A stretch of DNA of 64,000 nt from Wenyingzhuangia heitensis (lineage in GTDB: Bacteria > Bacteroidota > Bacteroidia > Flavobacteriales > Flavobacteriaceae): positions 372,001 to 436,000 of the forward strand of contig NZ_JAASQL010000002.1 of NCBI RefSeq assembly GCF_011762155.1, read 5' to 3'. The notes under the pieces were generated by a model. The model ran no database searches. It saw nothing but the letters and a program-made list of their open reading frames with translations, and was not told the origin of the DNA. The position numbers and the translations under genes were made by a program. Of this stretch, positions 61,624-64,000 are shown piece by piece; positions within the stretch are counted from its first letter, which is position 1, and every line of letters begins with the position of its first letter.

Positions 61624-62234
61624 TGTTTTATATTTTAATTTATTTAATACAACAAAAGTATTTTAAATGTGAAGTTTAAAGATTATCCAAATAAGTCAAA
61701 AAAGGGTAAAAGTGTAACCGTATGAGTTAAGAATGTTTTGTTTGTGAATTTTAGCTTTTTAAGAAATTATATATCGATAATTATCCTTTTAAACTTAGTA
61801 AAAGAAAAAAGATAGGATTGATAAAAACTTTAGATACGCATAAAATAGAAATGATTTAATCGTATTACTGTTTAAAACAATAAATAGAGTTTAATAAACT
61901 AAGCTTTGTAAACAATAAAAATATATGCTATTTCCCAATACAGTAAGTGTTAAAACACTATTTATTAGTTGTTTTATGTAGTTGTTAGTGTAGTATAGGT
62001 GTAGTTTTTATTTTTAAGAAGTTTATAAAAACGAACCTTGTGTATATTAAGTGCCTAATAATACACTTTTTCCCTCTAGTACAATGATATTAGTGTAAAC
62101 TAGTACTATTTATTAAGTCTAATGATTATACTTTCAATGTTTGTAGATTGACAAACGTAACATTTAGAATTAACTTAAAAATAACTATTTTTAAAATATT
62201 GAAATTAAGACCTTGTTTGATTACAAATATAAAG
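61624..62234. other. AT-rich intergenic region of about 600 bp
   Basis: It has no plausible gene on either strand. It contains short palindromes (AGTGTTAAAACACT near 61950), a CTAGTAC direct repeat near 62080-62105 and the inverted repeat at 62139-62156. Its length and composition mark the edge of an accessory segment holding the HNH/HIT pair and the HipB-like gene. Confidence 0.5.
62139..62156. promoter_or_regulatory. Inverted repeat upstream of the HNH gene
   Basis: GTTTGT-AGATTG-ACAAAC has perfect 6-bp arms, flanked by a further ATG/CAT-like symmetry (AATGTT ... AACATT). It lies about 80 bp before the preferred HNH start and could be an operator. Confidence 0.35.
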
Positions 62235-63266
62235 ATGCAATTACCACCAGAACAAAACATATCAATCTCTAAACTTACATCTGTATTTAAAAACACCAGT
62301 GCAACTTATAAATTTTATTGGTTTTGGGCAATACTAGAATGTGTTGATGAAGGAAAAATTGAAATTAATAAGAAGGAAATTTTTGCTAGAATGCTAACTT
62401 TATCTTGGTATACTGTAAATTATTTTCATGTGTCATTTGGAAAACAGGATTTGATACAGGATGCCGTTAGAACAATAAAGAATGTTGAAAATCTTAATGT
62501 TGACTCTAAGAAAAGTATAATCTTAGATAAACTATTAAAATCAAAAAATACAACGACTAATTCAATACTACATCATTTTGACAAAAACGTACCTCATAAA
62601 TTCTTGAGTCCATGGCTTGGTACAGGGTCTAAAGCTGAAGTGTATAATAAATCGCTGGATAAAAATGTTAATGCTCCTTATATACTTCTAAAGGATTCAA
62701 TAATTATATTAGATAGTTGGTCTGAATATTTTAGGGTAAATAGTGGTTTATTGAAATCTTTCTGTTATTGGAACTTAACCTTGTTTTTACAAGCAAGAAA
62801 TCCTAATGTACCAGATATTCCAAATAAAATACAAAGACCAATTGTAAGAGGTAGTTTAAATAATCACAAAAAAATGTTTTGGGATTTGATCCTAAATGAA
62901 TTGGGATATATTAATTGTATTTATACTGGAGAAAAATTAAAAGTTGGAGGTTACATTATTGAACATTTTATTCCACATCAATTTGTTGCTCATGATTTAA
63001 TGTGGAATTTAATACCTGCTGAGTCTAGTTTTAATTCTAGTAAAAGTGATAAGCTTCCTAGTTTTGATATTTACTTTGATGACTTTTATAAACTTCAGAA
63101 AGAAGGTTATAAAATTATCAAAACAATTAGACCTAAAAATAAATTTCTTCAAGATTACTTACCAATATTTCCTAATCAAGAGTTTAGTAAATTGAAATAT
63201 GAAGAACTTATAAAACCAATGCTTACTATTGCCCATAATAATGGTTTTCAATATATGAACTCATGA
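62235..63266 (+). CDS. HNH endonuclease domain protein
   Basis: A 343-residue protein from the ATG at 62235; an in-frame TTG at 62148 would add 29 residues but lies in the palindrome, so it is unlikely. The N-terminal ~200 residues are of unknown type, with mixed helices and aromatic residues (YKFYWFWAILECVDEG). The HNH core is near the C-terminus: CIYTGEKLKVGGYIIEHFIPH, DLMWNLIPAE and FNSSKSDKLP, giving the His, Asn and second ligand of the HNH_4-like type. It overlaps the HIT gene by 4 bp (ATGA). It is probably a nuclease of an accessory or defence unit. Confidence 0.82.
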   Translation: MQLPPEQNISISKLTSVFKNTSATYKFYWFWAILECVDEGKIEINKKEIFARMLTLSWYTVNYFHVSFGKQDLIQDAVRTIKNVENLNVDSKKSIILDKLLKSKNTTTNSILHHFDKNVPHKFLSPWLGTGSKAEVYNKSLDKNVNAPYILLKDSIIILDSWSEYFRVNSGLLKSFCYWNLTLFLQARNPNVPDIPNKIQRPIVRGSLNNHKKMFWDLILNELGYINCIYTGEKLKVGGYIIEHFIPHQFVAHDLMWNLIPAESSFNSSKSDKLPSFDIYFDDFYKLQKEGYKIIKTIRPKNKFLQDYLPIFPNQEFSKLKYEELIKPMLTIAHNNGFQYMNS

Positions 63267-63628
63267 AAAATTTTTTGAATATTCCTGAATCTGTAATTAT
63301 TTTTAAAAATAAATTCTTCTTTATCATAAAAGATTCTTTTCCTGTTTCTCCTGGACATCTTTTGATTATTTCTAACGAACTAAGAAAAGATTACTTTGAA
63401 CTATCTAAAGATGAAAAAGATAACTTGTCAGAAGTTATAAATCAGGCAAAATTATTAATTGAAAAGAATAATTCTCCAGATGGTTATAATATTGGAATGA
63501 ATTGTGGAAAATATGCAGGACAAACCATTTATCATTTTCATTGTCATGTGATTCCTAGATATAAAGGAGATATAGAACATCCAGAAGGAGGAGTAAGAGG
63601 TGTAATTCCTAATATGATGAAGTATTAA
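63263..63628 (+). CDS. HIT-family nucleotide hydrolase
   Basis: A 121-residue histidine-triad protein with the catalytic YHFHCHVIPRYKGD motif and an N-terminal strand set (FIIKDSFPVSPGHLLII). HIT proteins hydrolyse or transfer nucleotides from phosphoramidates or dinucleotides. Translational coupling to the HNH gene suggests that the two act together. The hairpin at 63677-63690 with a T7 tail may end the transcript. Confidence 0.9.
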   Translation: MKNFLNIPESVIIFKNKFFFIIKDSFPVSPGHLLIISNELRKDYFELSKDEKDNLSEVINQAKLLIEKNNSPDGYNIGMNCGKYAGQTIYHFHCHVIPRYKGDIEHPEGGVRGVIPNMMKY

Positions 63629-63676
63629 GTTATGTTTTCTAAATATAGAAAAACATTTAATTTTGAATAAAATTAT

Positions 63677-63768
63677 ACCCAATAGGGTGTTTTTTTGCTT
63701 ATAAGCATATGAATATACCCTATTGGGTGTATTTATGTTTTATTTTAGTATATTGCACCCATAAAGGT
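63677..63768. promoter_or_regulatory. Three operator-like sites at exact 40-bp spacing before the HipB-like gene
   Basis: ACCCAATAGGGT (63677-63688), ACCCTATTGGGT (63717-63728) and the degenerate ACCCATAAAGGT (63757-63768) begin exactly 40 bp apart. The first two are reverse complements of each other. The outer bases extend the symmetry (ATACCC...GGGTGT). The last site is 7 bp before the start codon. This is the pattern expected for cooperative binding by a HipB-type repressor. The first site is also followed by GTTTTTTT and could double as a terminator. Confidence 0.7.
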
Positions 63769-63774
63769 ATAATT

Positions 63775-64000
63775 ATGGAGGAGCGAAATAGAAATAATGA
63801 CATTGCTTTGTTTGTAAGAGAGAGTCGTAAAAAAGTAAACTTAACTCAAGTTGAATTAGCAGATATAACAGGAGTTGGTTTGCGTTTTTTACGAGAACTA
63901 GAACAAGGAAAACCTAATTTAATGACTGATAAAATCAATCAAGTATTATTGTTTTTTGGTCATACATTAACTATCAAACCTATAAGCGATGAGACAAGGA
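63775..64000 (+). CDS. HipB-like XRE-family antitoxin/regulator, 3'-truncated
   Basis: The frame from the ATG at 63775 gives 75 residues and runs off the window. It has an XRE helix-turn-helix (NLTQVELADITGVGLRFLRELEQGKPN) and a C-terminal strand FGHTLTIKP, the signature of short HipB-like regulators. Such genes usually precede a hipA kinase toxin gene, which would lie just beyond the window. Three operator-like sites lie immediately upstream. Confidence 0.82.
   Translation, partial: MEERNRNNDIALFVRESRKKVNLTQVELADITGVGLRFLRELEQGKPNLMTDKINQVLLFFGHTLTIKPISDETR

Follow-up and report, generated by a model that had tools for sequence, protein, structure and literature searches.

Why three short palindromes should stand at an exact 40-bp interval directly before a gene for a HipB-like protein, and what such spacing might do, is the question raised by the last few hundred nucleotides of the window, that is, of the whole 64,000-nucleotide stretch of Wenyingzhuangia heitensis DNA analyzed here.

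Three palindromic sites and the operon behind them

The original prediction placed ACCC-N4-GGGT elements at 63677, 63717 and 63757 with an interval of 40 bp. This was confirmed, and the recurrence was far above chance: exact matches to ACCCNNNNGGGT were found twice in the 64 kb, at 63677 and 63717, against a mean of 0.12 in shuffled sequences (n = 100; at least two matches in 2 of the 100). The start-to-start distance of neighboring sites was exactly 40 bp, and the cores of the first two sites proved, as had been claimed, to be exact reverse complements of each other. The third site, with one mismatch to ACCC-N4-GGGT, had been called degenerate, a description that did not hold up, as the site matches the consensus of its relatives. 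Among 296 like sites, core position 4 was occupied by C or T in 272 and the position paired with it by A or G in 259, so that the family consensus reads ACCY-N4-RGGT, with which the site at 63757 agrees. The palindrome reached about 20 bp (TTATACCYNNNNRGGTATAA). In the genome, ACCYNNNNRGGT was counted 119 times, compared with 85 for the reversed control. The sites and the genes that follow them are as follows.

O1, 63673–63692, no strand assigned: candidate 20-bp operator with core ACCCAATAGGGT (63677–63688), model score 21.1, followed by a U-run on the plus strand.
O2, 63713–63732, no strand assigned: candidate 20-bp operator with core ACCCTATTGGGT (63717–63728), centered 40 bp from O1.
O3, 63753–63772, no strand assigned: candidate 20-bp operator with core ACCCATAAAGGT (63757–63768), its center 40 bp past that of O2 and 12 bp upstream of the hipB ATG.
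hipB, 63775–64000 within the window (stop codon ending at 64017), plus strand: HTH repressor of 80 aa, PF01381 (E 4.5e-6).
hipS, 63989–64309 (L002 1990–2310), plus strand: protein of 106 aa overlapping the end of hipB, PF13657 (E 2.2e-25).
hipT, 64306–65262 (L002 2307–3263), plus strand: protein of 318 aa overlapping hipS, PF07804 (E 1.6e-41).

Coordinates past the window were obtained by adding 61999 to the position in locus sequence L002. O3 ended 2 bp before the start codon of hipB, which was picked by alignment with relatives; an in-frame ATG is also present upstream at 63709.

The DNA past the window end revealed that HipB (80 aa), HipS (106 aa) and HipT (318 aa) form a hipBST toxin–antitoxin operon, in which an HTH HipB is followed by a separate HipS and then by a HipT kinase, in overlapping or adjacent frames. 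HipB matched TIGR03070 with an E-value of 2.7e-18 and 65.7 bits, below the cut-off of 71.65, and the nearest named HipBs were those of Wenyingzhuangia (98% identity). HipT was akin to known HipT structures, the best PDB match being Legionella HipT 8ezr (E 1.1e-44), with 7vkb (1.2e-44) and 7ab3 (4.3e-16) behind it. The operon was assigned to hipBST and not to hipBA because the HipA N-domain and the kinase are separate genes, with ORFs of 106 and 318 aa in place of one HipA of about 440 aa; an identity as hipBA was thereby ruled out. The autoregulation originally supposed to resemble that of hipBA was supported as regards a HipB-like gene behind conserved sites of fixed step, and gave way as regards the operon, since the hipA expected past 64000 turned out to be split into hipS (PF13657) and hipT (PF07804).

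Operator spacing among HipB relatives and distant clades

Of 397 genomes from the window's family, taken to be Flavobacteriaceae, 48 had a HipB match, as did 66 of 395 from its phylum, Bacteroidota, two samples that overlap; a further search matched 38 contigs, among them L067, labeled Balneolaceae. A tblastn match was present in 153 loci (L154 had none). By their recognition helices the HipBs fell into two main types, GLRF (hereafter LRF) and ALTV (LTV). Collapsing 8 identical upstream regions left 145, and 10 loci (L015, L117, L134, L149, L155, L152, L156, L153, L069 and L070) were excluded as broken, truncated, too close to a contig end or of neither helix type, L069 and L070 being distant HTH proteins only. 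The resulting 135 upstream regions, 100 LRF and 35 LTV, were nearly all from Bacteroidota; near-identical loci stay among them, and the counts below are not independent.

Rather than lacking sites or carrying them at random distances, the relatives showed a step of 39–42 bp in 133 of the 135 regions and two such steps in 116, and the 40-bp period on whose conservation the original prediction had been staked was kept, almost all steps being of 40 or 41 bp. LRF operators followed TTATACCYNNNNRGGTATAA, with a 39–42-bp step in 99 of 100 loci and two in 87; the 195 LRF steps measured 31 (1), 39 (1), 40 (117), 41 (72) and 42 bp (4). LTV operators followed TTATATGNNNNNNCATATAA, with such a step in 34 of 35 loci and two in 29; here the steps were 39 (2), 40 (61) and 41 bp (2). 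At least three sites were present in 88 of the 100 LRF relatives, and fewer than three in 12 LRF and 6 of 35 LTV loci, including L151, an LRF-type locus in which the model scan returned no operator site. Of the 99 LRF loci with sites, 35 had the last one centered at −12 and 15 had it at −11. HipS and HipT matches fell in two distinct ORFs in 87 of 100 LRF and 27 of 35 LTV relatives and in a fused one in none, the HipS and/or HipT match being absent from the sequence examined in the remaining 21 of the 135.

Two-fold held-out models left these results nearly unchanged. Shuffled controls yielded single sites in 2 of 500 LRF and 0 of 175 LTV trials; a control on DNA downstream gave a site in 1 of 100 LRF and 0 of 35 LTV loci. 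A model-free palindrome test likewise peaked at a lag of 40 (28 of 100 LRF and 16 of 35 LTV loci; shuffle mean 0.2). The first LTV operator model was in the wrong register, gave steps of 12, 38 and 42 among others besides 40, and was rejected and re-seeded. Of the 21 families having a HipB match in the phylum sample, at least 17 had arrays. The DNA of L034 resembles the window only from 63714 onward, and yet this locus has an O1 of its own 40 bp above O2; in a plasmid locus from Persicobacter (L216), which had no part in building the models, sites were located at 879, 919 (one core mismatch, by eye) and 959. What precedes hipB has the layout expected of a multi-operator array, a single palindrome recurring at a regular step.

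HipBs with the ALTV helix went with other operator letters while the 40-bp step was retained, although the loci are akin by descent and LRF versus LTV amounts to one evolutionary contrast. The split in specificity was clean one way only: an LRF-type pair was found in 0 of 35 LTV loci, and at least two LTV-model sites in 28 of 100 LRF loci, probably owing to shared TATA flanks. GLRF with ACC/GGT versus ALTV with ATATG/CATAT provide natural HipB pairs for recognition-helix specificity, and a geometry kept across families despite the operator change is a simple, testable rule. As a sequence signature, the array could also aid in finding hipBST promoters.

A HipT search, with matches in 87 of 390 genomes, added 40 further loci, of which 17 were placed in class B, 12 in class C and 7 in class D; L192, L193, L194 (the same place as L149) and L198 were left unclassed, no hipB being found in L192 and no clear palindromic array in L193 or L198. 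In a midpoint-rooted HipT tree (64 rows from 74 loci tried), support was 99/98 for class A with L149 inside, 100/99 for LTV within A, 100/100 for B and 100/100 for C and D together. Class B (HipB with ..FDIE.. or similar) had the operator TTTACCG-N6-CGGTAAA and steps of 70 (5), 71 (15), 72 (6), 73 (3), 61 (2, both in L179) and 144 bp (1, in L183, which is without the middle site), along with one 71-bp step split into 51 + 20 by a spurious intermediate site in L189. The first site of L179 was weak (9.5), and leave-one-out modeling retained one of its two 61-bp steps. Class C had the operator AATCACATTATAATGTGATT and steps of 61 (21) and 62 bp (3), and class D the operator AAGTGCA-N6-TGCACTT and steps of 60–62 bp, with 71 bp in L214. 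Leave-one-out models gave the same picture with few steps lost, leaving 1 of 17 class B loci siteless, and shuffles produced single sites in 4 of 340 (B), 0 of 240 (C) and 3 of 140 (D) trials.

Some minor observations belong here. In class C (L195–L213) the last operator overlapped the hipB start codon, its center at −2 in 12 of 12 loci, in which classes A and B differ. The HipB of L149/L194 (G566) carried the helix ISLRLIRD together with another palindrome, TATATCAATTNTGATATA (by eye), and may represent a further specificity class. In an Arcobacter plasmid hipBST, from another phylum, the AT-rich palindromes TTTAGTATATAAACTAAA and TTTAACTTATATACTAAA had centers 61 bp apart by eye, a weak figure in a region rich in inverted repeats.

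Helical phase and the proposed mode of repression

The clade modes of 40.3, 61.0 and 71.0 bp corresponded to 8.8, 8.5 and 8.0 modulo 10.5, or approximately 10.5n − 2 bp. With class modes set by hand and a helical repeat of 10.5, the probability of so small an arc for three random steps was 0.017, a post hoc value from three clades. Exceptional loci departed from their own class mode by about one turn, namely by −9.4 bp in L011 (31 bp), −10 bp in L179 (61 bp) and +10 bp in L214 (71 bp), L011 being the poorer fit. Since 40 bp make 3.8 turns, successive sites on rigid 10.5-bp DNA would be rotated by about −70 degrees. The original proposal of some four turns between sites, with the dimers on one face, was off in the count, the step being 3.8 turns and the full 42 bp occurring in only 4 of 195 LRF steps; as regards the common face it was nearly right, since the phase is shared with the clades spaced at about 61 and 71 bp.

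A promoter element was sought relative to the last site, for which the sequence TAnnTTG, which we take to be the Bacteroidota −7 box consensus, was used.

−7 element, 63749–63755, plus strand: putative Bacteroidota −7 box TATATTG (TAnnTTG), which runs into the left arm of O3 and stops 1 bp short of the O3 core.

TAnnTTG started 14 bp before the last-site center in 35 of 99 LRF loci; in 18 of 35 LTV loci, TAnnTTTG lay 25 bp upstream of that center. The box was thus at its modal place in a minority of LRF loci and about half of LTV loci. A promoter scan with a sigma-70 model, presumably unsuited to Bacteroidota, showed no excess.

Taken with the observed sites, their conservation and spacing, the partner genes and the phase, the sequence makes it very probable that the three sites are the autoregulatory HipB operators O1–O3 of hipBST, which share one phase and jointly block RNA polymerase; binding by HipB, repression, the promoter position and cooperativity are the parts of this reading that we infer. 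A HipB dimer would occupy each 20-bp palindrome, probably with HipS and HipT aboard. Occupied O2 would cover the −33 region expected from the promoter spacing that we assume, and O3 would cover the −7 box and the transcription start, so that RNA polymerase would be shut out; O1 would serve as an additional upstream copy. Because the sites are spaced in the same phase, successive complexes would sit on approximately one face of the helix and could repress together, whether by contact, wrapping or looping. A HipB that counts or coordinates operators in this manner would bear on on–off switching of toxin–antitoxin systems and on persistence.

More tentatively, with a little less than even confidence, we propose that hipBST arrays follow a helical quantisation, each HipB/HipT clade having a fixed step (40–41, 60–62 or 70–73 bp) of whole turns minus about 2 bp, whatever its operator sequence; by implication, HipBST complexes would gather along a single, slightly twisted face of the DNA into a higher-order repressor, be it a wrap, a short filament or a loop. 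If this rule were true, operator letters and step would be free to change while the rotational phase stays, and the higher-order HipBST repressor might set the on–off threshold of the toxin.

Known systems offer partial parallels. The hipBA locus of E. coli K-12 likewise encodes an HTH antitoxin whose gene is preceded by multiple palindromic operators, four sites of TATCC-N8-GGATA (presumably the consensus) being centered 28, 39 and 28 bp apart. It differs from the window in having two genes, that 28/39/28 geometry and another half-site, and its phases of 7.0 and 7.5 are near, but not equal to, those of the hipBST clades. Closer in design is the tripartite HipBST of Legionella pneumophila, whose HipB is reported to bind three evenly spaced operators in EMSA; these are of 18 nt with 53-bp gaps (by addition, a center-to-center step of 71 bp), and O2 and O3 bear symmetry-breaking substitutions (PMC10653801). 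As in the window, three even operators stand upstream of hipB and the nearest overlaps the predicted promoter, whereas the step is 71 bp as opposed to 40 bp, the comparison being one of layout (PMC10653801). E. coli O127 HipBST shares the B-S-T order and a HipS that is a separate HipA N-domain (PMC10627512, PMC6581861), and its HipT is distant from that of the window (7ab3, E 4.3e-16). Its HipB represses the hipBST promoter (PMC10627512), which is reported to be without the Legionella motifs (PMC10653801). On operator spacing in Bacteroidota hipBST, no paper was found in the open-licence PMC literature, which is a weak sign of absence.

Other accounts of the array and its genomic setting

The strongest competitor to helical quantisation, though in our judgment an unlikely one, is that neighboring HipB–HipS–HipT complexes of one size touch each other and thereby fix the spacing, helical phase playing no part. 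The near-constancy of the step within clades (39–42 bp in 194 of 195 LRF steps and 61–62 bp in all 24 steps of class C) is what contact would give, but other hipBST clades have steps lengthened by some 20 and 30 bp and keep the phase, and three exceptional loci are shifted by about one turn; contact alone predicts neither the shift nor the shared phase. Contact and helical phase are compatible, and both can hold.

It is considerably less probable that the spacing is a by-product of 40-bp tandem duplication and functionless in itself. Arrays can arise by duplication, as illustrated by L017, in which perfect, operator-bearing 40-bp tandem repeats upstream of hipB point to an apparently recent array expansion. 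Two 40-bp spacers were present in 68 loci (43 LRF, 25 LTV), however, and in only one of these did the pair exceed 70% likeness; mean spacer likeness within loci (0.38, 0.36) was no higher than between loci (0.39, 0.42), which implies that only the distance is kept. Moreover, the step persists in at least 17 families and through the change of operator sequence, where drifting indels would have spread it. By the spacer comparison, duplication was rejected as the cause of the spacing except in L017.

Directly upstream of hipBST, a gene at 63263–63628 encodes a small HIT protein (PADLOC ThsC-type HIT, E 9.4e-10), and O1 had been suggested to be the terminator of its transcript. That O1, or O1 and O2, are terminators of the HIT gene instead of operators is very improbable. 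A scan for terminator-like elements does pick out both (2 found versus 0.4 expected), the RNA of O1 folding at −10.1 kcal/mol (z −3.3) with a U-run and that of O2 at −18.2, but such folding is expected of any palindromic operator. Furthermore, the hairpin and U-run are not conserved with the gene: L033, the sole HIT-bearing relative found, keeps HIT (88% identity) and O1 without the U-run (z −0.78). L034 carries an O1–O3 triad of its own, with the HIT match absent from the locus sequence examined. Termination as a conserved role of O1 found no support in these two loci and the suggestion was dropped in that form; a strain-specific dual use of O1, as operator and terminator, is possible.

Least probable of all is that the sites are used by another regulator, or that HipB has such arrays elsewhere in the genome: two sites survive in L015 and three in L153 although hipB is interrupted in both (by eye), but broken copies are mixed witnesses, L068/L117 and L156 with broken hipB having one or no site (by eye), and the strict 40-bp pair was present in 10 of 299 family genomes, in 9 of them at hipBST (the exception being G050), with its reversed control in 8 of the 299. 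As judged from strict 40-bp pairs, the array seems to be reserved for the operon that it precedes.

Regarding the surroundings, the HIT gene is overlapped by a gene at 62148–63266 for an HNH_4 protein with weak similarity to Cas9-HNH. This pair, present in L033 and without a match in L034, is possibly a small defense module. On the other side, L002 3390–11476 (window positions of about 65389–73475) contains the Type I restriction genes hsdM and hsdS. Behind them come an LmuA-like gene (ABC-3C CTD1), a gene without assignment and an SMC gene of LmuB-like type, a Lamassu-like set beside the restriction locus. With restriction and Lamassu-like genes nearby, hipBST seems to lie at the edge of a defense island.
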